Part shown: positions 12,991 through 59,303 of the stretch, piece after piece | Layout of the letters: every line of letters begins with the position of its first letter | How positions within the stretch are numbered: the stretch's first letter is position 1 | NCBI RefSeq assembly: GCF_016623585.1 | Contig: NZ_JAEHFY010000002.1 | Span: 124,001-188,000 of the forward strand | Direction: 5' to 3' | Source of the DNA: Pedobacter segetis | GTDB taxonomy: Bacteria > Bacteroidota > Bacteroidia > Sphingobacteriales > Sphingobacteriaceae | DNA: 64,000 bases | The notes under the pieces: generated by a model | Database searches by the model: none | Seen by the model: the letters and a program-made list of their open reading frames with translations, nothing else | Told to the model about the DNA's origin: nothing | Program-made: the position numbers and the translations under genes

Positions 12991-12993
12991 TTG

Positions 12994-13001
12994 CAAAGAT
13001 A
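12994..13001 (-). promoter_or_regulatory. -7 box (TATCTTTG) directly upstream of guaA ATG
   Basis: On the minus strand TATCTTTG matches TAnnTTTG exactly and ends only 3 bases before the guaA ATG. If used, transcription would begin at or almost at the start codon. No TTTG sits at the standard -33 spacing; a CAAA at 13011 is too close. Confidence 0.45.
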
Positions 13002-13538
13002 AAAATTAAACAAAGGGCGTGGGATAAATTTATAAATAGATTAAGGGGGGTGGTTTAATAGTTATTTTTACCATGAATGGATTAAGGGGAGCATGAAGTT
13101 TCTTGAGCCAAAATTAAAGTCTGCGTAAATCAGCGAAATCTGCGGGAGCTATTTTTTTAGGGTTATGATTTTAGAAGGTTATTAATCGATTTAAAAACAT
13201 TATTTTTGGCGTTTTATCCGCCAGCTGGCGGATATATTTTTTGTTTTATTCTTCGACTCCCTCTTCGACTCCGCTCAGAATGACAATGCTCAGAATGACA
13301 AAAAAAGCTTGCCCGAATTACAGGCGGGGATGGTTCTGCTAATAAGATTCCGAAATAAATTCGGAATGACCGCAAAAGAAAAACTTTGTCATGCAGTCCG
13401 ACAGCTGACGGATCAGCATCTTAGCAAAACGGGAGCTCAAGCAGGTTAAATAGCAGAAGGCTCTACTAATAAGAGTTTGATTAGCCAACTGGCCAACGGA
13501 ATGACCTTAACAAATAAAAAATAGATATATTTATTTTG
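12997..13538. repeat. Gene-free region with REP-like palindromes and short repeats
   Basis: About 540 bp between divergent guaA and the NlpC/P60 gene, with no credible ORF. It contains a perfect 20-bp palindrome (13215-13234, core CCGCCAGCTGGCGG) and a repeated CTTCGACTCC (13251-13260 and 13263-13272). A tandem GCTCAGAATGACA follows (13273-13285 and 13288-13300). There is also a TTCCGAA/TTCGGAA hairpin (13348-13366) and an imperfect palindrome at 13388-13419 built on the same TCCG-CAGCT-CGGA core. The patchwork looks like degenerate REP/MITE-type intergenic elements. A related hairpin occurs at 60496-60529. Confidence 0.6.
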
Positions 13539-14210
13539 ATGAAATTTTTTAAAATAAAACAACACATAACATTTACGCTGATCATCAGCGTTTTTATCTT
13601 TTTAGGCTGCAACCCAGCAGCTAATAGAAAGAATAAAATTGCGGCAAGCCAAAGCATCTTAGATACCGGGAGGCGATTTATCATCATCAAAAAAGATACT
13701 GCGGCCAAAATTAATTTAGATAGCGTAAAACTAGATTCTAGCAAAAGCATCCTCCAAAAAGATACTATCATAAAAAAAGATAGCATGGTACAAAAACCGG
13801 TAATTAAACCAAATGTTAACCAACAACAACTGGTAGATTTTGCCAAAACATTGTTTGGTAAGCCTTACTTTTATGGTGCTAAAGACCCCGAAAAGGGTTT
13901 TGATAATTCTGGTTTTGTAAACTATGTGTTCGGTAATTTTAATATTGAAGTGCCAAGATATACGGCTGGCTTTATGAATGTAGGTAAGCCTTTAGGTTTG
14001 CCCGATGCTGCCGAGGGCGATATCATACTTTTTTCTAAAACAGACAGCATAAAAACCCTTGTTAATTCTATCGGTATCGTTATTTCTAAAAAAGGGCAAC
14101 CTATTGAGTTTATCCATGCGGCCTCTGGTAAAACAAATAGTGTTACCATTACCAAAATGAATGACTATTATCAAAAAAGATTGATCGGCTTAAGGCGAGT
14201 AATGAATTGA
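13539..14210 (+). CDS. NlpC/P60-like lipoprotein lacking the catalytic cysteine
   Basis: A 223-residue envelope protein with a hydrophobic N-terminus ending in FLGC (probable lipobox, slightly atypical). A Lys/Asp/Ser-rich linker (about 30-90) precedes a C-terminal NlpC/P60 fold (about 93-223). The fold is recognisable from FAKTLFGKPYFYGAKDPEKG, the segment FDNSGFVNYVF and EFIHAASGK with the catalytic-type His193. Active family members cut peptidoglycan stem peptides using a Cys in FDCSGFV; here that position is Asn123 (codon AAT, 13905-13907). It is therefore probably non-catalytic, acting as a wall-binding or regulatory protein. Start is ATG 13539 rather than the preceding in-frame TTG. Confidence 0.8.
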   Translation: MKFFKIKQHITFTLIISVFIFLGCNPAANRKNKIAASQSILDTGRRFIIIKKDTAAKINLDSVKLDSSKSILQKDTIIKKDSMVQKPVIKPNVNQQQLVDFAKTLFGKPYFYGAKDPEKGFDNSGFVNYVFGNFNIEVPRYTAGFMNVGKPLGLPDAAEGDIILFSKTDSIKTLVNSIGIVISKKGQPIEFIHAASGKTNSVTITKMNDYYQKRLIGLRRVMN

Positions 14211-43277: not shown

Positions 43278-44003
43278 TTAAAACAGTTTAGCCAACAACT
43301 CTTCTTTTTTTTGAGCTGATACTTCAATTTCTTTTCCGTCAATCAACTCAAGAGTCCCACCGTCTCCTCTTTTATATTTTATAACATAATCTAGGTTAAC
43401 GATGTTTGATCTATTGATCCTAATGAAAAAACTATCACTCAGTTTTTGCTCAAATTCTTTGAGGGTTTTAGAAATCACTATTTTTCTTCCACCAGAAAGA
43501 TGGAAAATGCTATAATTGTTCATTGCCTCAACTAATACTATTTCTGCTTTCTTAACTAAATGTACACCTTCGGCGGTAGGCAGGGCAACCCTGATAAGTT
43601 TGTTTGCAGGCTCTGGGCTATCTTTTTTATTCGCCTCTCTTTCATTTGTTTTTTTTATAAGCCTAGATATGGCCAGTTCAAGCTCATCTTCATCTATGGG
43701 TTTCATCAGGTAATCCAATGCGTTTACCCGTAAGGCTTCTAAGGTATAAGAATGATAGGCGGTAACAAAAATTACCTCAAAATTAAATGCGCCCAAATGC
43801 TCCAAAAACTGAAAACCATTAAGGTTGGGCATCTCCACATCCAAAAAAAGGACATCTGGTTTCAATTCTTTGATTGCATCTAAAGCAACAATGGGGTCGT
43901 TAAAATTAGCAATAACCCTTATTGCGGAGCTAAATCTGCCCAGTTTATGTGCCAAAAGATTGCTGCCACGCAACTCATCATCTAAGATTATTGCTTTTAT
44001 CAT
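43278..44003 (-). CDS. LytTR response regulator of the envelope cluster
   Basis: A 241-residue regulator: receiver domain (1-120) with DDE near the start, phospho-Asp in VLFLDVEMPNLNG, and Lys in DYLMKPIDED; then a LytTR DNA-binding domain (about 140-241) with VEAMNNYSIFHLSGGR and FIRINRSNIVNLDYV. Such regulators pair with LytS-type kinases. It lies 45 bp downstream of the fibronectin gene on the same strand and is probably the last gene of that operon. The matching kinase type sits at the far end (54749-56773). Confidence 0.95.
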   Translation of the reverse strand: MIKAIILDDELRGSNLLAHKLGRFSSAIRVIANFNDPIVALDAIKELKPDVLFLDVEMPNLNGFQFLEHLGAFNFEVIFVTAYHSYTLEALRVNALDYLMKPIDEDELELAISRLIKKTNEREANKKDSPEPANKLIRVALPTAEGVHLVKKAEIVLVEAMNNYSIFHLSGGRKIVISKTLKEFEQKLSDSFFIRINRSNIVNLDYVIKYKRGDGGTLELIDGKEIEVSAQKKEELLAKLF

Positions 44004-44048
44004 CGTTAAAAATAAATAATAAATTTTTAAAGAGCCAGTTTAAAAACC

Positions 44049-46100
44049 TTATTGCCCCAGAATTACTTCAGACTCTGTTTTATCTTTATAAACCACTTTT
44101 ATACCAAAAGCTTTGGCCTGTTTTTTCACATTGGCTTCTACCATGGCGTTCTGATTGCCCGATATAGATTTATACATGCTTAAACCATCCCCATCATCTT
44201 TGTAAACGATAAAAAAATCAACTTCCTGATGTGGTTTTTCCCAAGTTAAAGACTCTTCTTTTTTAGCTTCATCATAATTTGATCTTAAATTTGGTTTGTA
44301 AGCTGTTTCTTTATATTGGGTTTTAAGGTACAGTGGAAAAGATAATGCGGATGCAAGATGGGAAGAGTCCACAGCGGTAATGGTATATAGATAAGCCAAT
44401 CCGCCCAAGGCAGTTGTATCTTCAAATGAAGTGTCTTTGGTAGTGCCAATTATCTGGTACAGGCTATCAGTAGAGGCTTTTCTGTATAAATTAAAATGGG
44501 AGAAATCTTCTTCAATACCCCCAGTCCAGTATATTTTTACGCCATTGGCATTATTGGAATATTTTTGGATAACAGGTACGGATGGTGGCAGAATATCTGG
44601 CCTTTCAAGGATTAATGCCTGGCTCATTTTACTGCCATTGAAATTACCATCTATAGCAGTTATTTTAATAAATAGTTTTTTAGTTAACGTATTTAAAGTT
44701 GTTTTGAAAGAATATGTGGTATCTCCCATCATATCAGAAATCGGGATAAATTCATGATTTTCCTGATTGGCGGCATAGACTTTATATCCACGTAAGGCTT
44801 TACCACTTATATCTGGCTTCCATTTCAAAACCACCAATCCAGTTGTGTCTATCAATCCCTTTAAACCAGATGGGGGAAGGGGAGGTATGGTATCTGGAAT
44901 GAAAACATATGCTGGGCTGCTGAAGCTTGCATTCCCTGCGGTATCAACAGCCATCAAACGGTAATAAGCAGATTTAAAGTCTTTGCTTAAAACAACTTTT
45001 TGAGAGATTTGAGAGGGTGGCATTATGGTTTTATTTATTATACTATCTTCCTGATTTAGGCCGCTGCCCCCCAAAAGATAATAACCTTTTAAATCTTTGT
45101 CCAAACTCTTGTTCCATGTAAATACAACCTCATTCCCTTTTTTGTCGAATTTCAAATCAGAAACCGATGGAGGTGTACGGTCAACCGCCATTCCTTGTGC
45201 AGTTTCTTCAAATTTTTGATGCTCGCCAAAGGCATTTACCCCTATCAAACGGTAATAATAAGGCTTATAGTTGGCTACAGAATCTACATAGTAATAAGAT
45301 ACATTTTTATCAGTGGTATCTGTAGCCGGTAAATAAATTTGTGTGTTCAAATTCTTAAAATTAATTTTATCTATAGACCGCTGGATATAATAACCCGTGA
45401 ATGGGCTGTTTTCTTTTAGCCATTTCAGGGTTATGGTTTGCTCTCCATTTTTTGTTTGTAAACCAAAAAATTTTTCTTTCACGCCAGCATCATGCCCAAT
45501 AACGTACACAAAACCAGTATCGATACTGTTGGCATAATGATAAGGCTTAGCTGCAGAAATGCGATATACATACTTCTTATTAAAATCTACCTTTAAGGTG
45601 TCATCAAAAGCCAAACCTGCATACTTGGCAGCAGAAGGACTTATTGCTGAATAAAGCGATGCGATAAGGTGCCTGTTTTGCCTTTCTTCATCCTGCATTT
45701 TCACCTGCGCTATCAGGCTCAAACCTTTAGGGTATTCACTTTTTCCATAAAGGGTCTGTGCCATGATAATCAAAGCTGTATCCTTTTCAAAGCCGGGATG
45801 CGTCATTTCCTGCAATGTGGCAGCTTTGATGGTATCCTTGCTGATGCGCACCCAGTCTTTAGATTCCGCTTTGTTATCTTTGCCTAAGATCAGCCGATCT
45901 ATAAAAACCCCGTCCTTAACCATCTGATCAAATAACTGGTAATTACTAATATTCCATCTCAGGGATATTTTATCCGGATATGCCTTACCTTTTCCAACAA
46001 TTTTGCCTCCGATGGTATAGGGCAGCTGTACGCTTTTTTTCTGTGCAAAAGTTTGTATGAAGCTTAGGCAAACGAATAAGGAGATACAAGTGATTTTCAT
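44049..46100 (-). CDS. Secreted fibronectin type III repeat protein
   Basis: A 683-residue exported protein (signal peptide MKITCISLFVCLSFIQTFAQ). After a unique N-terminal part (about 25-220) come four to five FN3-like repeats (about 225-590), with recurring YYIQRS, YYRLIGV, YYRLMAVDTAGN, GYKVYAAN and YLYTITAVDSS strands separated by TPP or IPPLPP linkers. A final short domain closes the protein (YNEAKKEES-like start to SEVILGQ). No enzyme motif or sorting domain is seen. Its start is 4 bp after the stop of the 2052-residue protein, so the two are probably made together and may interact at the surface. Confidence 0.85.
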   Translation of the reverse strand: MKITCISLFVCLSFIQTFAQKKSVQLPYTIGGKIVGKGKAYPDKISLRWNISNYQLFDQMVKDGVFIDRLILGKDNKAESKDWVRISKDTIKAATLQEMTHPGFEKDTALIIMAQTLYGKSEYPKGLSLIAQVKMQDEERQNRHLIASLYSAISPSAAKYAGLAFDDTLKVDFNKKYVYRISAAKPYHYANSIDTGFVYVIGHDAGVKEKFFGLQTKNGEQTITLKWLKENSPFTGYYIQRSIDKINFKNLNTQIYLPATDTTDKNVSYYYVDSVANYKPYYYRLIGVNAFGEHQKFEETAQGMAVDRTPPSVSDLKFDKKGNEVVFTWNKSLDKDLKGYYLLGGSGLNQEDSIINKTIMPPSQISQKVVLSKDFKSAYYRLMAVDTAGNASFSSPAYVFIPDTIPPLPPSGLKGLIDTTGLVVLKWKPDISGKALRGYKVYAANQENHEFIPISDMMGDTTYSFKTTLNTLTKKLFIKITAIDGNFNGSKMSQALILERPDILPPSVPVIQKYSNNANGVKIYWTGGIEEDFSHFNLYRKASTDSLYQIIGTTKDTSFEDTTALGGLAYLYTITAVDSSHLASALSFPLYLKTQYKETAYKPNLRSNYDEAKKEESLTWEKPHQEVDFFIVYKDDGDGLSMYKSISGNQNAMVEANVKKQAKAFGIKVVYKDKTESEVILGQ

Positions 46101-46104
46101 GATT

Positions 46105-49100
46105 TCAATATTTTGATGATCCGAATATACCGGCTACAGTGCCAGGAAGTTGAGGTTTTGTTAAATTCCCATTGATGGCATTGGTGGTCATTTGCCCAAT
46201 CGCTTCCCATGTAGCTACCTGATTAGCATTGCTAACAGGTGAACTTGCTTGGTTGGTTTGCGAATTGAAGCCCCAGTTTACCGCATAGTTTACCACCTTA
46301 TCAATTTGCTTTTGTATGGGATTGGTAAATGTTACCGAACCCTGGTCTCCGCAAACCAAATTTTCAGCTTCCATTTTTGAAACCAAAATTGTTGATGATG
46401 AGGGTGATAAAGTGTTGATAGAATTTCCTGCATAATTTCCAAAGTTTATTGCAAAACCATTGGCAGTTTGTTGGGGAAGTTCAGTGGGAATAGCCTCTCC
46501 TATGGCACTAAAATTATCTAAAAGGTCATCAGATTGGCCTCCCGTTTTACTGCAATGAAACCAACCGTCTGTTTCCTTTCCGGCAGAAACATAGTCTATT
46601 TGAAAGTTGGTTGTGGATAGCCCGGTTCTGTTGGCTAAGAACTCCTTCAGTTTTTGATATTTATTTTGCTCTAAATTTGCAATAACCGGTGGAGGATTTT
46701 GTAAAGGAGCTTGCACATTCACATACTGATGCTGGATGATGATGTTATTTGTGGCCCCCCCTTTGCTGTAATCAGGTTGGAAAACATCATTTGAACGGAC
46801 ATCATCAATATCAGCTTTGCTGAAACGCTCTCCGCAGAGGTTCAACTCTATCCCTAAATTGCTGCCACGCCCAAAATGGATGTTATAAATCCCGTTAACG
46901 GGTTTTATCCAAGTTTGAAGGGTGTTTTTATTTTGGATATGGCTTTTTAAACTACTGATGTTTTGTTCCGGATGATCCAAATTGCTGATCTTTGAGATGG
47001 CTAAGGCATCAATCTTATTTTGATAAGTATCATAGGCACTGGTTTTAAAATTGAAACCTCCAATAATATGCTCATTGCCAGATAGTTTGTTGATAAGACC
47101 TATATTGGTAGTTCTTTGAAGATACGTTTGTGACACAAGCTCTCCGGCAACCATACCAGTTGTTGTTTTCTCTGTTGTGCTGAAAGTGCTTTGGTTTCCA
47201 TTGCTATTAACCGGGGTTTTAGCAACAAAAACAATGGAATAGCTTGCATTTTTTTCTAATCCGGGATTGGCAATACTCCATTTAGAATGGCTATTGTTAT
47301 AGCTGATACTCTGGCCGCTAGAATTGGTAGAAGGCCTGTAAATACCGTCGTTGAGGTAATTGTTAACCACCTCCATGGTCACCGGCATATCTGCCCCTTG
47401 TTTAACCCCGTTTTTATAAATCCTTCCTACATATTGCGTACCTTCCGGGTATGCAAAGTCTCTGCTCAAATCCAATATCTTTTTAGTTTCTAAATAAATA
47501 GATCCGGTATTTTTTGACTCCTTCACAGGTACATCTTTTTGGCTGTGCAAAGGAGAGGTAATTGCATATTCTGATGAGGGAATAGCTTCAAAACCATTAT
47601 TGGTGGTAAAACTGATTTCTTTGGTTTCTTCTACCACTTTGCCATTTTCTTTTACAAACGTATAGTTGGCAGGCAGGCCGGCAAAACTATCGTCTTCTTT
47701 CATATGGGCAATTACCTTAAAAGTGTATTTGGTATTTTTTTCTAAATGGTTTTGGCTATCGTATGCCAAAGAATACTCATCTAATCTTTTTAGGCTATTG
47801 GTAACATCTGTTCCGTTTAACATTATTTTTAAGCAGGATCGATCAAAAAGGAATTTCCGCTTTGTGGGGCTTCCATCTTTATTAGGATGCTCATAATCCT
47901 CCCATTCCAGATAACCTCCTGTATAGCCTCCCGGTCCATAATCTCCGCCAGCTTTAATATTGAAAGCTGCAGCCGGCACTGCGGTTATATCCAGCTTATC
48001 ATCAGATTGCACCGTAGGGCTCAACTCAGAGATAATAGTTAACCCACCTAAGGCATCTGTACCGGATACACATTTTTCGCCCACGCTAAACCTAAAATTA
48101 AAATTTCCTCCAATTGCGCCATCCAATATAGAGAAGTATCCGCCTACGTTTCCTTCTGCCCAACTAGGGTTAGGCAAACCAGCCCTCACAATGGCGGCCG
48201 CACCGGCATCGAATATATTGAAAGTGCCCTTTATCAATAAAAGGTTTACTTTGATCCCTATTTTGGCCTGAGCACCCATGTAGGCCTGTCCTTTGGCATA
48301 CCAACCGCCCGGCCCGCCAGCGCCCAATACATTGTTGCAAGTTGTCTCAGGGTTGATGGAAAGATCAAAACCCATCAGGGCTTTTAGGGTGCCCACAAAC
48401 ATGAGGAATTGTTTATCATCAAAACCAAATTTGGTATAAGAACCTATGATCAGCCCTTTGTTGCTTCCCTCTGCATGGTAAGTTCTTGGAGCAGCAGGTT
48501 GCCTGTTGTTGAGGATGTCTTTTTGCATACCTGCCAGTTGCAACACTTCATCCGGGATGGCGGGCATGGGGTCAATCTGCATGGTGCCAACTTCCAAATA
48601 GGATGTACCCACAAACAGGCCGTTAAAAACATCTACCTTAGTTGGCCCTGGTGTGTTACCCAAAGGTCGCCCAATATGGATGAACCAACCTTCTGGCGAG
48701 GAATAAAATTCCGTACTTCCTGTTACATGCAACAGCCCATGGCTGTCAACATTGGGTACGCCTAACTCTGCGCCAATTTTTGCATCAAACACCTTATTTC
48801 CGAAATCGTATTCCACATTCAAATCGCCCGCACCTGTAGAAACGCCCCTTCTTTGATTTAAAGGTTTGCTCACATCGGTAAGAATCCTAGCGTTACCATT
48901 GATTTTTACAAAATCTACTCCTCCACCAGGTTTAAATCCCATAGAAAAGGTGGCATCTGCATCTAAAGTATTTCTGCTGGTCAGTCCAAATAAAATGGTG
49001 GCCTGTAAACCAAAACCTCCGCGTTGTGGGCTTAAGCTTAAACCCGCGGGGTTAAAATTCAACAAATCTTCAGGACTAGAATCGGGGTTTGGGTCCTTGT

Positions 49101-52100
49101 CGCTTTTATAGGATGCAGGAATCACATCAACATCCTGAGTTTTTGCTTGGGTAGGTATTGCTGCTGCATGCGGTACAGAAGAAGGGTCCAATGCCATATT
49201 ATAATAAAAACCACCGCCAAAGCCATACAATGCTACTGGAATGGGAGGTGCAAAAGTGATCCCGGTTTGTCCAAAATCTGCCAAGGCGTTAAAATCAAAA
49301 TAATTAAATGCGCCTTGGTTATCAGATTTTGAACCAAACCTTGCCCTCATGTTAACGGTAAGCATAGAGGCAATGTCTGTTTCTAAAGCTCCCACAAAAC
49401 CTTCATCTATTTGGTTTCCGGCATTTTTATTAAAATATTTTATCGCACCTTTTAATTTAAAAGGGCCCAAATCAGTACCGCCGGCAAAAGTAATGTCCTC
49501 AATTTTTCCACCTATGCCTGTCCATACTATTCTGTTGTTTTCTTTTTTGATACCCGATGAAATAGAGAAGGTGGCATCTGCTTTGCAACTGATGGCAGAG
49601 CCCGCAAGGCTCAAATTTCCTTTAAATTGTAACGATGCTTTGGCTCCTAATCCATCAGGACTGGTACTCAATGCGGCAGTTTCTAAATTATAATCAAATC
49701 CTGCTAGGCTATGTTGAGGCGATGCCAAAGCAATCTTTAAATTGCCGGCTTCAATAAAATTACCGTAAGTCATCAATTTTAAACCTTCAAAATGGATTCC
49801 AGGCAAGCCTACTTTTCCTACTCCCGGGATTTTCATATTTGAAGTGTTAGCAATGCTCAAAACGCCGTTGAGGTTTGCGGTGGCCTTAATTTCCTGATTG
49901 CTTGTTCCTTCTACCACAATACTGCAGTTAGTCAAATCTACATTCATGAACAAGGCATTAAAATCAATATTTTTTTTGTTGCTTATCGCAAATTGATAGG
50001 CCAGATCATCACCATTGGATGCAGAACTTAGCGTTGCCGAATAATCTAACTGGTTTTTGGCATCGTTAAAATTGCCGCTTGCCGGCAAAACCAACTTGCC
50101 CCCCATACTGCTTGTTTTGAATGCCGATTTAAAAAAATCAATCTTAAATTGATTGATGGAAGCGTACCAACCTCCCATCGATCCATTGGCAAGAGACAGT
50201 AGGTTGCCAGCTTTTTGTACCGTACCTGTAAATCCGTTATCATCATAAATAAGATTAGATCCCTCAATGGAAACATCATCATTACTGGCCAAATTCTTAA
50301 TGATCTCTGGAAGTTTCACATTAATTTTAGGGATAAATATACCTCGCCAAGTTTTTGCGCTGGTATTTATGGGCGAGCTGCCTTCTGAAACATATTGTAC
50401 CGGTAAACCTGTTGGGTTCTCAAAATCTGAATGATCGTAATAGATTTTATTGGTATCCGCCTCAAATTTAATGCTGCGCATCCCATCCACATAAAATGTT
50501 GGCAGTGTCAATTCAGCAATCCAGTTTTGCCAACCTTTTTTGGTAATAGCTTTAATGCCTGCTACCAAAGGGGCGTTGGTTTGGGCATTTCTTAATGAGT
50601 TTGACGGGAAATCATATGCTGCATCGATAGCCAAAGATTGGAAACCATTTTTATCGAACGCAACAAAGGTGCCGCTTGGGTTATTACCGATGCTGCTTGT
50701 TTTATTTAATTTGATGTTGATGCGGGAAAGTTGTACATCATTGGACAAATAGAGCTTTCCGCTTTCGCACAGCTTATCTTGCGTTAGGCACATCCCCCTG
50801 CTGCTGAAAGCTATTGTTTTATTGGCTTCCGGAGCATCCATTGCGCTAGCGGCATCAAACCAGGCTTGCGTGGCGGTAAAATACATACGCCCTATACCAA
50901 TTTTCATAACCCCTGCATCTAAGATCAAGGGCAATTCAAAACCTTGGCTATTGCCGCTGTTTTTAAGGTAAGAGAGCGAATTTTCTGTATGGTTAGACAG
51001 GAAGGCCTCCCAATTTTTGATGCCTTCATCATCAAAACGGATCACTTTGTCATCGGGGCTGCTGGCTTCGGGCACCAAATCGGCTATTTGAGGATTTACC
51101 AATCCTTTTACCATCCCGCTTTTCATTCTTAGTTCGGGGTTAACCGTTAAATTAAAGAAAGCAACATTTAATTTTGCGCCAGACAGGCCAGAATCTATAA
51201 AAGGTAGAATGATTTTACCTTTACCGTTTAAATACGATGAAGAGCGCTGTAAACCTGTAACCTCCATTTTAAACTCGCCAACACTAATTATGCTACCAAT
51301 TTTCACTAAGTCGTTTTTAGTGTTCCCTTCGGCCAAAACTTGCTTGCAATTACAGCTTGGTGCAAAGCTTGGTTCGGTTGTATTAGGGCTTTTTTCTGTT
51401 GCGATAATTTCTGCGGGCTGGGAATAGGTAAACGAAATTACCTCACTTTGCCCATTATTTCTAAACGGGGTGTTGTTAAAAGGATCAAAAGCTTGTATAG
51501 ATAATGCGTATTTTCTGCCGGCGGTCAGTTGTGGATCGGAAGGATTATAAATATAAGAGTTCCCTATAACCTCTTTCTCAAAAAAATAAGGCTGTGTTGC
51601 GCTCATCAAGGCATCATTTGGGTTTTTATCCCCAAACAGCTCTACCATACGGATCTTGTACCTTACCTGTGGTGCTGTACCTGGGGGCGTGTTCCAAATG
51701 ATCGGGAAATTTTGCCCCGCAGAGGAATTGATTTCTTCATCTGCCAAGGGGCGGATAATCAATGGTGGCTCTAAACTGCTGATGCTAAATGTATTGCTGC
51801 ACCCCAAGGGATTATCGGGGCTGATGGGTTGGTTATCATCATAATTAAAAGCCCTGATACAAAAACGGTAAGCGCCTTCTGGCAAACCATTTTTAGAAAT
51901 GAACTCACTTTGTGTAATACCCGTATAGTTGATCTTGGTATAGTCAAAAAAGTAACTCAGGTCGTTTCCATTTAAGCTTATACTGCCTCCGGGGTTCAGT
52001 ACAATGGGTTGTGGACTTTTATAGCTGTCGCTCACTTGTAAAATGATACCATTATCCCCATAAACAGTTCCTCTTAGCTGTATCCTTTGCACCTGAGTAG

Positions 52101-52263
52101 AAGTATTCAAAACATTTACCACCATCAATTGAGGGTTGGATGAATAATCTGTGATCTTAGTTGGATATGGGGGTAAAATCTGAACAGAAACATTCACTTG
52201 TGCAAATGCGTTTAATTGATATGCACCAATCAATAGCAGTAAAAAAATCCATTTTGTTTTCAT
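46105..52263 (-). CDS. Giant secreted TANFOR-like protein (2052 aa)
   Basis: Signal peptide MKTKWIFLLLLIGAYQLNAFA, then an N-terminal region (about 25-290) resembling the TANFOR domain of Bacteroidota: VSVQILPPYPTKITDYSSNP, GLPEGAYRFCIRAFNYDDNQ, LGCSNTFSI, and a following FN3-like segment. A linker with CNCK (near 305) leads to a very long middle part (about 310-1450). This consists almost entirely of predicted beta strands with small hydrophobic and polar residues alternating (for example KADATFSISSGI, LDADATFSMGF). Two Ig-like regions follow (about 1470-1750) and a mixed C-terminal region closes it. No enzymatic motif or T9SS sorting domain is visible. The ATG is 2 bp after the barrel gene's stop. 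Function unknown. Confidence 0.8.
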   Translation of the reverse strand: MKTKWIFLLLLIGAYQLNAFAQVNVSVQILPPYPTKITDYSSNPQLMVVNVLNTSTQVQRIQLRGTVYGDNGIILQVSDSYKSPQPIVLNPGGSISLNGNDLSYFFDYTKINYTGITQSEFISKNGLPEGAYRFCIRAFNYDDNQPISPDNPLGCSNTFSISSLEPPLIIRPLADEEINSSAGQNFPIIWNTPPGTAPQVRYKIRMVELFGDKNPNDALMSATQPYFFEKEVIGNSYIYNPSDPQLTAGRKYALSIQAFDPFNNTPFRNNGQSEVISFTYSQPAEIIATEKSPNTTEPSFAPSCNCKQVLAEGNTKNDLVKIGSIISVGEFKMEVTGLQRSSSYLNGKGKIILPFIDSGLSGAKLNVAFFNLTVNPELRMKSGMVKGLVNPQIADLVPEASSPDDKVIRFDDEGIKNWEAFLSNHTENSLSYLKNSGNSQGFELPLILDAGVMKIGIGRMYFTATQAWFDAASAMDAPEANKTIAFSSRGMCLTQDKLCESGKLYLSNDVQLSRINIKLNKTSSIGNNPSGTFVAFDKNGFQSLAIDAAYDFPSNSLRNAQTNAPLVAGIKAITKKGWQNWIAELTLPTFYVDGMRSIKFEADTNKIYYDHSDFENPTGLPVQYVSEGSSPINTSAKTWRGIFIPKINVKLPEIIKNLASNDDVSIEGSNLIYDDNGFTGTVQKAGNLLSLANGSMGGWYASINQFKIDFFKSAFKTSSMGGKLVLPASGNFNDAKNQLDYSATLSSASNGDDLAYQFAISNKKNIDFNALFMNVDLTNCSIVVEGTSNQEIKATANLNGVLSIANTSNMKIPGVGKVGLPGIHFEGLKLMTYGNFIEAGNLKIALASPQHSLAGFDYNLETAALSTSPDGLGAKASLQFKGNLSLAGSAISCKADATFSISSGIKKENNRIVWTGIGGKIEDITFAGGTDLGPFKLKGAIKYFNKNAGNQIDEGFVGALETDIASMLTVNMRARFGSKSDNQGAFNYFDFNALADFGQTGITFAPPIPVALYGFGGGFYYNMALDPSSVPHAAAIPTQAKTQDVDVIPASYKSDKDPNPDSSPEDLLNFNPAGLSLSPQRGGFGLQATILFGLTSRNTLDADATFSMGFKPGGGVDFVKINGNARILTDVSKPLNQRRGVSTGAGDLNVEYDFGNKVFDAKIGAELGVPNVDSHGLLHVTGSTEFYSSPEGWFIHIGRPLGNTPGPTKVDVFNGLFVGTSYLEVGTMQIDPMPAIPDEVLQLAGMQKDILNNRQPAAPRTYHAEGSNKGLIIGSYTKFGFDDKQFLMFVGTLKALMGFDLSINPETTCNNVLGAGGPGGWYAKGQAYMGAQAKIGIKVNLLLIKGTFNIFDAGAAAIVRAGLPNPSWAEGNVGGYFSILDGAIGGNFNFRFSVGEKCVSGTDALGGLTIISELSPTVQSDDKLDITAVPAAAFNIKAGGDYGPGGYTGGYLEWEDYEHPNKDGSPTKRKFLFDRSCLKIMLNGTDVTNSLKRLDEYSLAYDSQNHLEKNTKYTFKVIAHMKEDDSFAGLPANYTFVKENGKVVEETKEISFTTNNGFEAIPSSEYAITSPLHSQKDVPVKESKNTGSIYLETKKILDLSRDFAYPEGTQYVGRIYKNGVKQGADMPVTMEVVNNYLNDGIYRPSTNSSGQSISYNNSHSKWSIANPGLEKNASYSIVFVAKTPVNSNGNQSTFSTTEKTTTGMVAGELVSQTYLQRTTNIGLINKLSGNEHIIGGFNFKTSAYDTYQNKIDALAISKISNLDHPEQNISSLKSHIQNKNTLQTWIKPVNGIYNIHFGRGSNLGIELNLCGERFSKADIDDVRSNDVFQPDYSKGGATNNIIIQHQYVNVQAPLQNPPPVIANLEQNKYQKLKEFLANRTGLSTTNFQIDYVSAGKETDGWFHCSKTGGQSDDLLDNFSAIGEAIPTELPQQTANGFAINFGNYAGNSINTLSPSSSTILVSKMEAENLVCGDQGSVTFTNPIQKQIDKVVNYAVNWGFNSQTNQASSPVSNANQVATWEAIGQMTTNAINGNLTKPQLPGTVAGIFGSSKY

Positions 52264-52265
52264 GC

Positions 52266-53960
52266 TTAAAAGTTTAAGGAGTAACTCAATTCGCTTCTGG
52301 TCTCAGAAAAATTGGGGGTAATGGCGTTCAGGCTTTTCGCTTTATTATTGGTAAAATAAAAATTGAAACCTAAATTTTGACGCTTATCCACCTTATAGTT
52401 TAAATTGCCAGAGGCATTGATGATGAAAGACTTATTTTGGTTGGCATCGCTTTGCGTTAAGGTGTTGGTGATGCCGGCCTGTAATTTGTTTTTTATCAAA
52501 AAGGTGTTACCGCCCAATGTTGCCCCTAAAAATTTACTGTTTAGCCCCGCACCTTTAAGGTTTGTGTTGTTAAGGTTGATGAAAACACTCCAATTTTTTT
52601 GGGGGAAACCGAGGTTGTAGTTGATGAAAAACTGGGTGGTATTGATGTTTCTTGATGCGGCATCGTTACCAAAAAAATTATTGAAATCTCGCAGGGTATT
52701 GATGCTAGCAGATGCTGAAATGGCATGCGTGGCATTGGTAGATGTGATAAAATACCTCGGCATTAGGCCTATGGTTTGGGTGGTCTGCACAATTTTGATA
52801 GAGTCGGCATAAAGTACAGTCTTTGCCCTTTGGTTGTCAGAAAAATTACTGTAAACCACATCAAAGCCTAAACTTTTGTTGACCTCATAGCTCAGATTTG
52901 CCGACCCGATCACTCTGTTGTTTTGGGCCCTTTTTTGGTTCTTTAAATTATCATGCTGCAAACCCAAACTTCCAGATAACCTGGCTTTTCCTTTGAATAA
53001 GGTAGCCGATGGGCTGAGGATGTAATTCTCCAAATCGGAATTAAAATAATAAGCACCCATGGTCTTAAAATCTGGGTCTATGCGCTTATAGCCTAACTTT
53101 ATCTGATAATTTTTGCCCTTATAAACTAATGCTGCTGATATTGCCGTATAAAACTCTGTGGTGGCATTTATAGAGAAGTATTTCTTTGCTTGATTTAGTA
53201 CGGGGTTATCAAAAGAATCTAAAGAAAGCGAAGAGTTGTAATCTTTAGTGTATAAACTTGCTGCACCATCGCTCTCAAACAAAATATTTTTAAAAAGGGT
53301 AAACTTATAAGAATAGCCCAATACATTATTAGATGCAGGGTTCACTATATTTAATTGATTGGGCAAGTTATCGGGTATTTTATCATCATCTTTTGCGCTT
53401 AGGTAACTAAACTCAAAAAAGTTTTTATCGGATCCATAGCCCAACTTTGCAGCGTAAGCCTTCCTGCTAAAAGAAAAAGGCACTAAAGCCTGTGTAGTGG
53501 TGTCTATGGTGGTGGCCCTGTTTAACCGGCCATACATAAAACCCAGCCTCAATTTCCCGGGCTTCATCTCAAAACCAGCACCTAAAATGGTATGGCCGCC
53601 TAATGTATAAGGCGAGAAGTTGAGGTTACGGTAACCGCCATGAAGGGTAAGCCATTTATAGGTAGGGCTTATGCCAAACTGGTTAAAGGGCTGCCTAAAA
53701 GAACGATCGACCTCACTAAAGGTAAAAGATACCGGTATAGTGAAACCATAGAAGCTAAAAGTTGGGCTACCTACCAGATAATAACTCAAAGGTTTGCGCC
53801 GATCCGGGATCCCATTGGCATTATAGGAAATACCCCTAGCTTGTATGTTACCGCTAAAGTTAAACGGTTTTTCGTTTTTTAGGTTTGTAAAATCTTGTGC
53901 CTGCACAGGATTTATCATGAAGGCTAACCCAAAAGCACCTAATAAAATGCACTTTTTCAT
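52266..53960 (-). CDS. Predicted outer-membrane beta-barrel protein
   Basis: A 564-residue protein. ATG 53958-53960 is chosen because MKKCILLGAFGLAFMINPVQAQ is a proper signal peptide; an upstream start at 54050 would add 30 odd residues. The mature protein is a succession of amphipathic strands with frequent aromatic ends (GYRNLNFSPYTLGGHTILGA, KLRLGFMYGRLNR, FFEFSYLS, YQIKLGYKRI). It ends in ELSYSLNF, the terminal phenylalanine expected for an outer-membrane barrel. No named family is recognised. Position 2 bp upstream of the giant protein suggests it anchors or exports that protein; this is inference. Confidence 0.75.
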   Translation of the reverse strand: MKKCILLGAFGLAFMINPVQAQDFTNLKNEKPFNFSGNIQARGISYNANGIPDRRKPLSYYLVGSPTFSFYGFTIPVSFTFSEVDRSFRQPFNQFGISPTYKWLTLHGGYRNLNFSPYTLGGHTILGAGFEMKPGKLRLGFMYGRLNRATTIDTTTQALVPFSFSRKAYAAKLGYGSDKNFFEFSYLSAKDDDKIPDNLPNQLNIVNPASNNVLGYSYKFTLFKNILFESDGAASLYTKDYNSSLSLDSFDNPVLNQAKKYFSINATTEFYTAISAALVYKGKNYQIKLGYKRIDPDFKTMGAYYFNSDLENYILSPSATLFKGKARLSGSLGLQHDNLKNQKRAQNNRVIGSANLSYEVNKSLGFDVVYSNFSDNQRAKTVLYADSIKIVQTTQTIGLMPRYFITSTNATHAISASASINTLRDFNNFFGNDAASRNINTTQFFINYNLGFPQKNWSVFINLNNTNLKGAGLNSKFLGATLGGNTFLIKNKLQAGITNTLTQSDANQNKSFIINASGNLNYKVDKRQNLGFNFYFTNNKAKSLNAITPNFSETRSELSYSLNF

Positions 53961-54050
53961 GTTTGTTTTTAACAGAGATGAAACGATCATGATGTAATGA
54001 ACAAGCCCCAAGGGTTTTGGTAAAATCATGGTGGTTCCATGAGATGACAT

Positions 54051-54407
54051 TTAGAAATCTGTTGAGATAACCTGTTCACTACATGAAGTAATATTTACCG
54101 TTTGGCTGATATGCTTATTTTGAATGGGAATTCCTGCATTATCAAATGCGAAAACATCTAATTTATAAGTTCCTGGGCTAAAATGTAGTGTGTCTTGGAA
54201 TAATCCCTTATTTAAAGTTTTTCTCTTGTATTTTGGCACATAGGTATCTACCCCATGGGCGTTTGGAGAGTTAGAGGCGTATTTTAATGTGATGATTCCA
54301 TAATTGTAGCGTTCACAATCTTTAATTTTGTTACCATCATTTTTGCTGCATCCCACAATGAAAACCGGGATGATTACAAGCAATAAGATTTGTGTTGATA
54401 TTTTCAT
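54051..54407 (-). CDS. Small lipoprotein of the envelope cluster
   Basis: A 118-residue protein with lipoprotein signal peptide ending VFIVGC (Cys20), followed by SKNDGNK, then a compact beta-rich domain of about 90 residues with two cysteines (DCERYNY, ITSCSEQ) that could form a disulfide. No known family. First gene of the leftward envelope operon and divergent from the histidine kinase, with about 290-340 bp between starts. Confidence 0.72.
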   Translation of the reverse strand: MKISTQILLLVIIPVFIVGCSKNDGNKIKDCERYNYGIITLKYASNSPNAHGVDTYVPKYKRKTLNKGLFQDTLHFSPGTYKLDVFAFDNAGIPIQNKHISQTVNITSCSEQVISTDF

Positions 54408-54748
54408 TTTTTTAGCGTATTAATTAAATATTTATAGATCAATTTTTGATTTTAAAACCTAAATCATAATTAAAATTAGCCTACTTTATAAAATAAAAAT
54501 CGCTGATTGAGCAGAATACCAGTTTTAATGATCTAAAGCAGAAAAGCAATTAGGGAAACACCAAAGGTTTGAGGAAAAAAATCTGCAATTTGCTGGCTTA
54601 TAATCCTTTTGAACATTTTATGGATTTTTATTTAGATTTATTGGATGATGAAATTGCTTAATTTCTTTAACCCTCTTAAGAATGATTTAACCAAATGGAT
54701 AAGACAATTATAAAACAGCCCCAATCTATTATTACGTTTTCATTGATT

Positions 54749-56773
54749 ATGAGAACGACGTTGGTTGTGATTTTGATCGGTAAAATAATGTTTGGGTTTG
54801 CACAAGAAAGCCAAAAAACAATTGATTCCCTAAAATATGCCATTGCCCATGCTAAACCTGATACCACTAAGGCAAAGGCTCTATATCGCTTAGCCGAATT
54901 TTATATCAATAGCCAACCCGATTCCTCCTATTATTATTCAAGTAAATGTTTAAAACTGGTAAAGGAAATTAATTGGGACAAAGGGATTGGTGCTGTTGAG
55001 AGTTGTTTTGGGAGGATTTACAGTAATAAGGGTGATAATAAGGAAGCGCTTAAACATTATGAGATCAGCCTTCAAAAAGCCATAAAAATAGATTTTAAAC
55101 CGAATATCATTTCCTCTCTGATCAATATCGGATCTGCCTACCAGATGATGTCGGACTTGGTAAAAGCTACTGAATATATTGAAAAAGCACTTAAAATTGC
55201 TAAAGAAACCAACAATGCCAGATTAACAGCATTCTGTTACAGTAATCTATCAGATATTTTTTTTGCCCATCAGGATATAGAAAAATCTCTCAGTTACAAT
55301 CAAATTGCCTTAGGATATGCTTTACAAAGTGATGACCTTAACGAAGTTGGATCTATTTACATGAAAATAGCCGGCGTATATTTATCTCAGAATAAATTAC
55401 CTTTAGCAGAAAAGAATTATAAAAACGCACTTCGAATGTATCGAAAAACCAACAATAGGTTTGGTGAAGCGCAAGTGTTGTCTAATTATGCTTTAATATT
55501 TGAAAATGAAATAGGTAAACAAAAAAAACTCTATTACCTACTAAAGGCTAATGAGATTTATAATCAAGTCAATCCAAAATCCATAAATTCAATTACAAAT
55601 ATGGGCAATATTGGAGGTACTTACGCTGGTATCGCCATAATAGATCAGTCATTAAGTAAAACGAAAACGCTAATTACCGCAAATCAGAAAGATTCATTAT
55701 TGAAAAAAGCGGTATCCTACTTAAATAAAGCAATTCTTTATAGCAAAGAGGTCAATGATATGGACGATTTAAGCTATTTCTCAGATAATTTGGCGCAGGT
55801 TCAAGAATATCAAGGAGATTATAAGAACGCATTAAAAAACTTCAAAATTTCTAAGAATATAGATGATTCTTTATACTCACAAAAAGCTAAAAATAAGATT
55901 GCCAAATTAGAGAGCCAAAAAGATCTAGATAAGAAAGATCTAGAGATTGCCGATAATAGATCCAAAATGAAACAGCTCTGGATATACGGATTGATAGCCA
56001 TCATCATCATCGTTTTGATTGCCGGCCTTGTTGTTTTTAAATACCGGCTAAAACAGTTACGATTAAAAAATGAACTGGAAAAAAATGCGGCAGAAAACAG
56101 GGCAAAAGAACTGACACACAAAAACAAGCTGACAGAGATTGAACTTAAGGCCATCAGATCACAAATGAACCCACATTTTATATTCAATGTGCTCAATTCC
56201 ATAGAATCTTACGTGATAGAAAATGATAGCAAAACAGCGAGCAGGCTTATTCAAAAATTTGCCTCATTAAGTAGGTTGATTTTAGAAAACTCTACCCAAA
56301 GCTTGGTATCGGCAGAAAAGGAATTTAAGGCTTTACAGCTTTATACAGAACTGGAGGCTATCAGATTTAATCATCATTTCAGTTATAATTTCGAGCTCAA
56401 AAATAGATCACCTCTAAAAGAAATCATGATGCCCCCAATGCTGATACAACCTTTGATTGAAAATTCCATCCATCACGGACTAAAAAACCAAAAAGATAAA
56501 AAAAACCATATTTTGATCAAAATAGAAGAAATAGATAAAGAATTGACATTTACCGTTAAAGATAACGGGATAGGCTTAAAGGAAGCAGCCAAATTAAAAA
56601 GCAACCACTTGTTTAAAGAACAATCATTTGGTTTAAAGGGAATTAAAGAAAGGCTGAAAATTATGGAGCATTTCAATAGATCGGGAAATATAGATATTTA
56701 TGAAGAAGAAAATCTGCAAGGCACCATAGCAGTTTTAACACTGCCTTTGATATTAAAAAAAATCAATTTTTAA
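54749..56773 (+). CDS. TPR-containing LytS-type sensor histidine kinase
   Basis: A 674-residue kinase. ATG 54749 gives the compact signal peptide MRTTLVVILIGKIMFGFAQ; an in-frame ATG at 54695 would add 18 residues. Residues about 20-390 are TPR repeats in the periplasm (for example KALKHYEISLQKA, AEKNYKNALRMYRK). One membrane helix is near 415-435 (IYGLIAIIIIVLIAGLVVFK), followed by a short coiled coil. The His_kinase domain has the phospho-His box QMNPHFIFNVLNSIESY, and the HATPase has LIQPLIENSIHHGL and DNGIGL. It is the LytTR-partner type. Divergent from the envelope operon, it probably senses a surface or periplasmic protein of that system. Confidence 0.93.
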   Translation: MRTTLVVILIGKIMFGFAQESQKTIDSLKYAIAHAKPDTTKAKALYRLAEFYINSQPDSSYYYSSKCLKLVKEINWDKGIGAVESCFGRIYSNKGDNKEALKHYEISLQKAIKIDFKPNIISSLINIGSAYQMMSDLVKATEYIEKALKIAKETNNARLTAFCYSNLSDIFFAHQDIEKSLSYNQIALGYALQSDDLNEVGSIYMKIAGVYLSQNKLPLAEKNYKNALRMYRKTNNRFGEAQVLSNYALIFENEIGKQKKLYYLLKANEIYNQVNPKSINSITNMGNIGGTYAGIAIIDQSLSKTKTLITANQKDSLLKKAVSYLNKAILYSKEVNDMDDLSYFSDNLAQVQEYQGDYKNALKNFKISKNIDDSLYSQKAKNKIAKLESQKDLDKKDLEIADNRSKMKQLWIYGLIAIIIIVLIAGLVVFKYRLKQLRLKNELEKNAAENRAKELTHKNKLTEIELKAIRSQMNPHFIFNVLNSIESYVIENDSKTASRLIQKFASLSRLILENSTQSLVSAEKEFKALQLYTELEAIRFNHHFSYNFELKNRSPLKEIMMPPMLIQPLIENSIHHGLKNQKDKKNHILIKIEEIDKELTFTVKDNGIGLKEAAKLKSNHLFKEQSFGLKGIKERLKIMEHFNRSGNIDIYEEENLQGTIAVLTLPLILKKINF

Positions 56774-56867: not shown

Positions 56868-59303
56868 TCAATCATCATCATCTTTCTTTTTCTTTTCTAA
56901 TATTACAAAAGCACTTCTTTTTGGGGCGGGCATTACAGAATCTTCTCCTTTAATATATTTCCAGATGGTTTCATTCAATTCTAGGTCTGGTACCGCATCT
57001 TCTTTAGCGAAGTTAAATGATGCTGATTTTTTTGAACTTTCATTTATAGCGTAATTTCTATCGTCTAGATTTACGTTCGCCTTTAAATGGGTAAATGGTT
57101 TTAGGTTGATCTTGGGGGTAAAACAATCATATAAAGGTAAGGCAGCGGCATCATACTGGCTCATAGCGGGTAAATTTAAAATTAATTCCATAGTGCGCAA
57201 GAAACCACTGGTAGAGTACATGGTAGAAATTACCTCGTTTCTTTTAGTGTAAGGGCTAATTACCAAGGCTGGCGAGCGGTGGGCATCCACATGGTCAGAA
57301 CCGTTTTGGGCATCGTCTTCTAAAATAAAAATTACCGATTCTTTCCAGATAGGGCTATGTGATAGATAATCTACAAATAGCCCAACTGCTAAATCATTAT
57401 CCGCTACGGCTGCAATTGGTGTGTATTTTCCTGTTCTTTGCCCGCTGGTATGATCGTTTGGAAATCTAATGGTATTAAATTGGGGTACTTCTCCTTTTGC
57501 TAATAATAGGTCAAAATCTTTTTTCCAAATGCTAAAACGGGTGGTGTCTTTTATGCTTAGATCAAACGATGGGTAACCAACACAAAAATGATTTTCCAAT
57601 GCCGGTATATTAGCCATTTTCTGGTCGGCAAATTCTCCATAAGTTCTATAGCTTAAACCCGCTCTTTTACAATAGTCCCAAATAAAACCATCTCTAGGAT
57701 AAGCAATTTTTCTCGATCCTTCATAATCATAAGTGCCGCCCCTATCGCCATAACTTATAGGCCAAGTTTTCTCTACATAATCAGTTCCGTAGGCTGCCAT
57801 GCTCCAGTTATGCCCATCGGCACTTACTTCCGCATCTGTATAAAAATTATCTAGCAAAACATACTCATTTACCAATTTGTGGATATTGGGGGTTATTTTT
57901 TCGCCAAATAAACAAAGGGAACTATCACCGTTTCCTTTTTTAATATCGCCCAAAACTTGGTCGTAAGTTCGGTTCTCTTTGATGATATAAAACACATGTT
58001 TTATCGGGCTTTTTTCTCCTGCCTTTATGGGGATAGGATTATCCTTTATGGACCGAATATTAGATGAAACTTTTCTGGAAGGCACATTGGCATAAACTTG
58101 TGTGCTATATTTTTTTAATTGCTCTTTGCTTGGTATATCTATGATAGATAGCGTCCCTTTAAACAGGCCTCCGATATATTGTTCTTCGTTTTTTACAGTG
58201 GGGCTTTTTTGGTAACCGCTATCATCTGCTTTGCTAATTGGCTTTGGGCCATCAGGATTTGGTAAACTTGTAAAACCTTTACCGTTTGCTACAAAGATCT
58301 TATCATTAAAACTTTTTATGCTGGTGGGGTACCAGCCAGTTGGGATAAAACCCTCGCTTTTGCTTTTTCCGGGTTCAGAAACATCAAAAACCGCCAAACA
58401 ATTGTTGTCTGCGTTGGCAACATATAAAGTTTTTTGATCGGTAGATAATGCTAATCCGTTGGTTGTAGAACCGGTTAGTTTGGTTGGCGTTAGCGTGGCA
58501 GAAATGGTTTCAATTACTTTATTTGTTGAGGTATTGATCACAGAAACAGAATTATCGTTGGCATTTGCAACATAAAGAATGGTTCCTTTTTTATTGAGCA
58601 ATAGCTCATTTGGATGGTTTTCTGTGTTTATTTGATCAACTATTTTTTTGGTACTGGTATTAAACACCGTTACTTTATCTCCTCCCCATAAAGAAATATA
58701 AAGCAATTTTTTATTTGGCGATAATATGCAGGCATAAGCCTCTGCGCCCAAAGTAACTGTTTTTAAGATTTTTTTTGTTTTTAGATCAACAATATATAAA
58801 CTATTGTTTTCTTTGGTAACGGTATATAATAACTGGGCTTTATCATCAATAGCGATCCCGGTTGGGCTAATTTTATTGGGCCATTTTTTACCAATTTTAA
58901 TGGTATCGGCATCGGCTAGTTTTTTATTGATGATGGGGTAAACCAAAATGATGTTATCATTACCACCAGATACATATAACTTTTTTCCATCTGCGCTAAA
59001 AGTAAGGCCATACCAAGAAGCACCTATCGGTTTTTCATCTAAAATCACTTCAGACTTGGTATCGATCAGTTGGATGCTTTGCGTACTTTGCCCGTTATTG
59101 GTAACCGCTAATAATTTGTTTGAGGATGAAAGTTGGATGTTTAGCGGCAAATCTCCCAATTGTAGGGATCTACCGGCCGGTGTTAGGTACCACCCATTAG
59201 AAAGCAATATTTTATCTGCTTTGGCATTATTTGTAGGTGTTTGTGCGGTACCAACAAATGTGATCGCCATTAATATTATACTTAAAAATATATTAGATTT
59301 CAT
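56868..59303 (-). CDS. YncE-like beta-propeller fused to phosphoesterase domain
   Basis: An 811-residue exported protein (signal peptide ending FVGTAQ). Residues about 40-370 are a YVTN/YncE-type propeller with repeated LYVANANDNSVSVINTS-like blades. Residues about 420-790 are a phosphoesterase/alkaline-phosphatase superfamily domain with HVFYIIKENRTYDQVLGD, TPNIHKLVNEYVLLDNFYTD, FILEDDAQNGSDHVDAHRSP and VISPYTKR. Phosphoesterases of this type include phospholipase C and acid phosphatase relatives; substrate unknown. The C-terminus is highly acidic/basic (KKKKDDDD). A -7 box lies upstream. Ends 94 bp from the convergent kinase gene. Confidence 0.92.
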   Translation of the reverse strand: MKSNIFLSIILMAITFVGTAQTPTNNAKADKILLSNGWYLTPAGRSLQLGDLPLNIQLSSSNKLLAVTNNGQSTQSIQLIDTKSEVILDEKPIGASWYGLTFSADGKKLYVSGGNDNIILVYPIINKKLADADTIKIGKKWPNKISPTGIAIDDKAQLLYTVTKENNSLYIVDLKTKKILKTVTLGAEAYACILSPNKKLLYISLWGGDKVTVFNTSTKKIVDQINTENHPNELLLNKKGTILYVANANDNSVSVINTSTNKVIETISATLTPTKLTGSTTNGLALSTDQKTLYVANADNNCLAVFDVSEPGKSKSEGFIPTGWYPTSIKSFNDKIFVANGKGFTSLPNPDGPKPISKADDSGYQKSPTVKNEEQYIGGLFKGTLSIIDIPSKEQLKKYSTQVYANVPSRKVSSNIRSIKDNPIPIKAGEKSPIKHVFYIIKENRTYDQVLGDIKKGNGDSSLCLFGEKITPNIHKLVNEYVLLDNFYTDAEVSADGHNWSMAAYGTDYVEKTWPISYGDRGGTYDYEGSRKIAYPRDGFIWDYCKRAGLSYRTYGEFADQKMANIPALENHFCVGYPSFDLSIKDTTRFSIWKKDFDLLLAKGEVPQFNTIRFPNDHTSGQRTGKYTPIAAVADNDLAVGLFVDYLSHSPIWKESVIFILEDDAQNGSDHVDAHRSPALVISPYTKRNEVISTMYSTSGFLRTMELILNLPAMSQYDAAALPLYDCFTPKINLKPFTHLKANVNLDDRNYAINESSKKSASFNFAKEDAVPDLELNETIWKYIKGEDSVMPAPKRSAFVILEKKKKDDDD

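Follow-up and report, generated by a model that had tools for sequence, protein, structure and literature searches.

SprF is the partner barrel of the surface protein SprB, and pairs of this kind (SprB/SprF, PorP/SprF) are the nearest model for the joint encoding of a large surface protein and a partner barrel in the outer membrane. On the regulatory side the nearest described pair is BtsS/BtsR (YehU/YehT). The TANFOR proteins of Bacteroidetes were proposed in 2020 as polymorphic toxins with C-terminal toxins (Jana, Salomon, Bosis; PMC7073777); what is said here of this paper, and below of PMC4847170 and PMC10653868, concerns the parts of them that were consulted. Export of TANFOR proteins by the type IX secretion system (T9SS) is offered as a hypothesis in PMC7073777, where SprB repeats and T9SS tails are enriched near TANFOR genes and the word "barrel" is absent from the main text. 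Here we analyze a 64,000-nucleotide stretch of Pedobacter segetis (contig NZ_JAEHFY010000002.1, positions 124,001 to 188,000 of the forward strand; hereafter the window). It carries genes for a small lipoprotein, an outer-membrane beta-barrel, a giant protein, an FN3 protein and a LytTR regulator, with a divergent LytS-type kinase. We propose, with a probability of about 0.6, that this is an autoregulated outer-membrane cassette, in which the barrel and the N-terminal module (N-module) of the giant would be a constant docking unit, the body of the giant and the FN3 protein would be exchangeable, and a kinase, a regulator and an operator would be its own. No such cassette is named among the matching titles listed, subscription papers aside.

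The barrel-giant-FN3 cassette

The genes for barrel, giant and FN3 protein are conserved together as a cassette. We started from 156 barrel loci (E<1e-55) and removed 16 that were at least 90% identical to others; two of the remaining 140 were set aside at contig ends, which left 138 non-redundant testable loci. The barrel is followed by a giant-type gene in 121 of these, with the N-module in 115 and the core alone in 6. The median gap to this next module or core gene is 3 bp, and 113 of the 121 are within 30 bp. The gene next after the giant encodes an FN3 protein in 95 of 105 cassettes. The co-occurrence of the three genes across Bacteroidota, for which the sequence-only reading had proposed a neighborhood check, is thus borne out.

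Barrel homologs were found in 14 of 60 genomes (that of P. segetis included) and in 89 of 395 of the class; with distant homologs included and at most three candidates scored per genome, they occur in at least 177 of 395 genomes of the phylum. In a further scan, the best 80 of 145 named loci belong mainly to Pedobacter, Mucilaginibacter, Sphingobacterium, Spirosoma and their kin. For the derivation of patterns, alignment A4 was too diverse and the closer set A6 gave usable ones; a scan of genome contigs with the giant as a single protein gave no match. The TANFOR model (TIGR02542) reached its cut-off in none of the 395 phylum genomes and matched weakly at 17 places in 13 of them. Six of these places are directly behind a barrel, as judged by comparing coordinates by hand with the barrel matches listed, and six more are on the same strand within about 11 kb of a barrel, with the TANFOR gene first; the remaining five have no barrel nearby among the matches listed.

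All six genes of the window lie where the sequence-only reading had placed them, as a leftward run of five with the kinase divergent, and Pfam domains agree with its identification of the regulator, the FN3 protein and the TPR-LytS kinase. The gaps were likewise reproduced: 2 bp between barrel and giant, 4 bp between giant and FN3 gene, 45 bp between FN3 gene and regulator, and 90 bp between the lipoprotein gene and the barrel if the latter starts at 53960. By eye, this signal-peptide start is more likely than the start at 54050, to which the longest open reading frame extends (barrel, 52266-53960, minus strand).

The AlphaFold2 model of the barrel (pLDDT, the predicted local distance difference test, 84; pTM, the predicted template modelling score, 0.74) is a confident large beta-barrel, as had been predicted, with about 25 strands by our count and a C-terminal Phe, a residue shared by 102 of 140 barrels. 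In two-partner secretion, POTRA domains precede the 16-strand barrel of TpsB/Omp85 proteins; the predicted model of the window barrel, at about 25 strands, has only a low-confidence helix before residue 61. The closest solved fold is that of MtrB, of the same size class (Z 17.8, root-mean-square deviation (rmsd) 6.1, 436 aligned residues), and the pilus usher PapC also belongs to this large-barrel class (Z 15.3, rmsd 4.2, 387 aligned); identity to both is only 11-12%. As smaller porins reach up to Z 16.9 over about 270 residues, Z hardly discriminates among fold candidates, and a family missing from the match lists is not thereby excluded. Pfam gave no match to the window barrel at E<=1 and weak matches in 3 of 59 relatives, and solved structures in the Protein Data Bank searched with barrel and core profiles gave no sequence match at E<=1. 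PorP_SprF (PF11751) matched neither the window barrel nor the 59 relatives at E<=0.01. The window thus differs from PorP/SprF in a barrel without this match and about twice the length of the 273-position model, as well as in a giant in which no T9SS tail was found.

The first gene after the predicted operator (54051-54407, minus strand) encodes a lipoprotein of 118 amino acids with a lipobox IVGC, seen by eye, and a below-threshold Pfam match to DUF4399. It occupies the slot held by collagen-like lipoproteins at other loci: of the genes just upstream of barrels on the same strand, 35 of 103 (near-identical loci kept) form one BLAST-linked group, most members of which have collagen-like GPxG repeats. 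A conserved family around the window lipoprotein itself found no support, with one insignificant match (E 0.30) among the loci besides itself.

The cassette also occurs in variant forms. A second one in the P. segetis genome (L018; C19, 4813-18776) has a collagen-like lipoprotein, a TPR/HisKA protein and another LytTR regulator; its best operator score is only 7.9. A minimal form is found in L109, L110, L113 and L116: behind the barrel comes a core protein of about 975-978 amino acids that lacks the N-module and stops right after the last core strand. The FN3 gene is next in L109, L110 and L116, and the L113 stretch stops after the core gene. In L126, L129 and L132 the barrel is behind a large secreted-type protein, and a core protein of about 950-980 amino acids, with no N-module fused to it, is encoded divergently upstream. 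In L145 and L147, with distant barrels of 769 and 906 amino acids, the next gene encodes a short protein with the N-module and, two genes later, comes a giant of 2402 or 2222 amino acids starting near GGPSQPEV/SGPSQPEV; NCBIfam gave no match for these two loci at E<=0.01. The giant gene of L092 and L204 is in two reading frames, which may reflect pseudogenes or sequence errors.

Modules of the giant and its FN3 partner

The giant (46105-52263, minus strand, 2052 amino acids) has a signal-like start, seen by eye, and matches the TANFOR model over residues 21-161 with 51 bits. Since this is under the 67-bit cut-off of TIGR02542, we call the module TANFOR-type. The protein has no Pfam match at E<=1. 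It resembles the toxins of PMC7073777 in its N-terminal TANFOR-type module, its signal-like start, its variable downstream part, the enrichment of FN3 domains in the neighbors and its host phylum, and differs from them in that neither a toxin domain nor an immunity gene was found at the window.

Giants share approximately residues 1-290 (51394-52263 in the window) and then continue into one of two bodies that cannot be aligned with each other: type M in 33 cassettes (the window included), type N in 58 and neither in 5. The two types were told apart by BLAST, so remote kinship is possible. Across 91 cassettes, barrel distances correlate with N-module distances (rho 0.78) far better than with FN3 distances (0.15). 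Placed on the barrel tree, body type requires at least 13 changes (100 label shuffles: mean 26.2, minimum 20); the N-module tree requires 14 and the FN3 tree one. These trees hold 88 of the 96 cassettes, those of type M or N with an FN3 protein; the barrel tree is a quick IQ-TREE run without mixture model, and the other two were made with FastTree.

The FN3 protein (44049-46100, minus strand, 683 amino acids, secreted, FN3 by Pfam) is the body-matched partner: the median best BLAST score of FN3 pairs is 116 bits for the same body against 42.6 for different bodies. In all 13 different-body pairs examined, similarity between the giants ends at about residue 280-400, even where the barrels are 89% identical. 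L084 and L220 are such a case, with barrels 89% identical, giants 72% identical over 385 residues and without match thereafter, and FN3 proteins 22% identical. With barrel and N-module constant and body and FN3 protein swapped, the simplest reading would be recombination inside the giant gene that exchanges the body together with the FN3 gene. The barrel and the N-module, adjacent and co-varying, would then be a constant docking unit whose parts probably bind each other, and body and FN3 protein, an evolutionary unit, may form an exchangeable payload complex. A complex of barrel and giant is likely.

Residues 850-1400 of the giant (48064-49716, minus strand) are modeled with about 23 long strands, amphipathic in character, and are predicted to form a membrane-barrel-like or lipid-facing beta domain. 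A strand-alternation test gave z values of 5.4 and 4.5 against shuffles for this region. The window barrel scored 2.1, the remaining parts of the giant between -0.8 and 0.1, and the FN3 protein -0.7. In type N bodies the high scores fall in the last quarter (median z 5.0). From these scores and the core model, a membrane-type beta domain seems likely in both bodies.

Kinase, regulator and predicted operator

The kinase (54695-56773, plus strand, 692 amino acids) has TPR, His_kinase and HATPase_c domains by Pfam, with the LytS-type His_kinase match at 73 bits (cut-off 25.2), and by eye a signal-like N-terminus and one hydrophobic helix near residues 427-450. The gene adjoining it (56868-59303), outside the cassette, encodes a beta-propeller and phosphoesterase protein. 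The regulator, the last gene of the predicted operon (43278-44003, minus strand, 241 amino acids), has Response_reg and LytTR domains, the latter at 63.9 bits (cut-off 22.6). Its best NCBIfam resemblance is to BtsR, at 119.6 bits and thus below the cut-off of 246. BtsS, however, is a seven-helix pyruvate receptor (PMC10653868), whereas the window has a TPR sensor, and the target here would be an envelope cassette.

In the P. segetis genome we counted six LytS-type kinase domains and seven LytTR domains. For five of the kinases a LytTR gene lies no more than about 1 kb away on the same strand; the window kinase is the exception, with 12.6 kb between it and the window regulator. The LytTR gene left over, the seventh, is that of the second cassette and adjoins a gene for a TPR protein that matches HisKA. 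In 7 of 10 tested genomes, a relative of the window regulator (56-66% identity) is encoded 0-8.4 kb from the cassette. It is upstream in L162 and L170, immediately after the FN3 gene in L154 and L166, and downstream in L155 (3.1 kb), L153 (5.2 kb) and L176 (8.4 kb). The three Mucilaginibacter genomes among the ten have no relative above 39%. Because this kinase alone lacks a near LytTR gene and the regulator has its relatives near cassettes, the two are very likely partners, as the sequence-only reading supposed. Whether kinase and regulator always flank the cassette, which that reading had asked, is answered in the negative: 2 of 105 cassettes are bracketed, other cassettes have both genes on one side, and bracketing as a strict rule was rejected.

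Kinases and receivers were located across loci with home-made hidden Markov models, and part of the calls were checked with Pfam. In 64 of 105 cassettes a kinase, a regulator or both were found in the zones searched, 5 kb on the upstream side and 2.5 kb on the downstream side. Of the 61 loci with 9 kb of upstream sequence, 41 have a kinase within 0-5 kb versus 10 in 5-10 kb, and 32 versus 12 have a receiver there. The kinases are of LytS type, HisKA_3 or HisKA.

A search for 21-bp repeats revealed the motif of the candidate operator in relatives. In five Pedobacter loci, direct repeats of approximately TTTCRCTCATT recur with a spacing of exactly 21 bp some 90 bp ahead of the barrel start, and a matrix was built from their ten half-sites, the window excluded. 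The two best double sites of the 127,936 window positions are an overlapping pair in the gap between kinase and lipoprotein genes (16.6 and 14.2; the next scores 12.8). Together they make three direct half-sites of exact 21-bp period (54548-54559, 54527-54538 and 54506-54517; whole site 54506-54559, minus strand) that read towards the lipoprotein gene. Other half-site spacings (15-20 and 22-29) score lower in the gap, the best being 11.5 at 20. Plain direct-repeat counting there did no better than shuffles, and the AgrA-type LytTR consensus has no site in it. Known LytTR sites consist of 9-11-nt repeats, direct or inverse, separated by spacers of 11-13 nt (PMC4847170), and the three predicted half-sites follow the direct-repeat pattern. 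On our reading, the YehT site in the yjiY oligonucleotide (Table 1 of that paper) resembles the operator core CRCTYA with its 21-bp period. The suggestion that the regulator controls the divergent promoter therefore gains support, the best LytTR-like direct-repeat site predicted in the window lying in just this gap.

Of the 11 loci outside the training set that have a window-type regulator (assigned by hand, the window included), 9 have the operator as their first- or second-ranking site, versus 12 of 89 others. Where the operator is present and the fetched stretch holds no regulator, all six genomes encode a relative beyond it, compared with two of ten operator-less genomes; a clean split of the six operator genomes comes to 28/8008 by hand calculation. 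These 16 genomes were hand-chosen (6 operator-positive, 10 negative), and L137, L179 and L024, with weaker operator scores, were left out. In L158 the relative is about 5.5 kb downstream, if the contig is the same. In the L171 genome it is broken by an internal stop (G777:C45:9009-9575), and the cassette there retains a strong operator. Sites also precede regulator genes in L251, L252, L168, L178 and L253, which points to autoregulation. Dedicated regulation of the cassette is strongly supported.

Possible function of the cassette

The TPR region of the kinase, probably periplasmic, might sense the state of the apparatus or a ligand, and the kinase would phosphorylate the LytTR regulator, as judged from their families. 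The regulator would bind the three predicted, 21-bp-phased repeats and turn on the genes from lipoprotein to regulator; being encoded last in its own operon, it would give feedback. The barrel and the TANFOR-type N-module would dock together, the body and the FN3 protein may form the payload complex, and the barrel could be the outer-membrane anchor or exit port for giant and FN3 protein. It is best read as a docking or exit partner of TANFOR-type proteins that would serve in their export or anchoring. Since the window body probably has its own membrane-type beta domain, the product is more likely an assembly embedded in the outer membrane and exposed at the surface than a released toxin.

Several observations weigh against the autoregulated cassette. 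Seventeen of the 138 barrels have no module or core gene directly behind them; eight of these (L023, L105, L112, L126, L129, L132, L134 and L141) have a core, N-module or FN3 gene elsewhere among the nearby genes. In the six core-only loci the core follows the barrel without the N-module, which is therefore not the only way of pairing, and the idea of it as the sole basis is weakened. No kinase or regulator lies in the zones given above in 41 of 105 cassettes. On the barrel tree we count 33 changes of regulator kind, a number that label shuffles also reach (mean 38.1, minimum 31) and that, with the differing kinase kinds, indicates a control that recurs, not as one inherited pair. Besides the two operator-less genomes that do have the regulator, L156 has an operator-like site (15.2, rank 1) and no regulator relative above 38%, and L253 has a kinase-regulator pair with an operator (12905-13732, score 34.1) and no cassette in 20 kb. 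The giant-core model is weak (pLDDT 73, pTM 0.44), its best VIA fold matches, to membrane barrels, have a Z of about 11.7 with an rmsd of about 15, and 60 true barrels gave a median z of only 1.8 in the strand-alternation test.

It is possible, though doubtful, that TANFOR-type giants are T9SS substrates and the barrel is no pore but a surface shuttle or anchor, as SprF is for SprB. The T9SS export hypothesis and the neighborhood enrichment described in PMC7073777 agree with this, as do barrels directly behind large proteins with T9SS tails (over the cut-off in L108, L112 and L131, just under it in L117 and L126; one gene further up in L134). SprA is present in 57 of the 60 genomes searched, P. 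segetis included, but a protein so common says little by co-occurring. Against T9SS export, a sorting domain was found neither in the window giant nor in 11 giants scanned at E<=0.01, and the window barrel lacks a PorP_SprF match. An undescribed toxin in the C-terminus of the giant (about 1400-2052), which would make this a polymorphic toxin locus, is unlikely. TANFOR proteins with C-terminal toxins are published (PMC7073777), and the last 612 residues have a phmmer match in one other protein only of the first locus set, a weak one (L023, E 7e-4). However, Pfam and NCBIfam gave no toxin domain in the giant and no immunity gene at E<=1, and 4 bp on comes the FN3 gene, then the regulator.

The amphipathic strands at 850-1400, and a core fold that weakly resembles not only barrels but also LptD and ApoB100, would also fit an import or lipid-handling apparatus. 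It would comprise a large pore, a lipoprotein and a giant protein in the periplasm whose beta groove faces lipid, and would act inwards or inside the envelope. We consider this rather unlikely: the FN3 and Ig-like parts suggest a surface role, the TANFOR proteins of PMC7073777 bear toxins, and the Foldseek matches have TM-scores of only about 0.1-0.2. That the gene order reflects lineage inheritance without functional coupling is highly unlikely. Related genomes do share the order, and body labels are more clustered on the barrel tree than shuffled ones (13 vs 26.2), but the patchy presence of the barrel (14 of 60 genomes), the coupled swapping of body and FN3 protein and the co-occurrence of operator and regulator speak against it.

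Beyond the autoregulated cassette we tentatively put forward a wider proposal, which we hold to be somewhat less than probable: that Bacteroidota have an as yet undescribed system for export or display at the outer membrane. Its barrel of about 25 strands would recognize the TANFOR-type N-module and carry exchangeable payloads, here giants that have a membrane beta domain of their own and in other lineages toxins, with a body-matched FN3 co-factor; a dedicated kinase would monitor the apparatus and switching would act via a BtsR-like operator. Neither body-FN3 coupling nor regulation was met in the consulted parts of PMC7073777, which leaves the exit route of TANFOR proteins open beyond its T9SS hypothesis. 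A barrel family that lacks a Pfam match and co-varies with just the shared N-module would be a concrete alternative route, which a single deletion could probe. That body and FN3 protein are swapped together hints at which parts bind each other even without a solved structure, and the predicted operator would be a ready reporter for finding the inducing signal.

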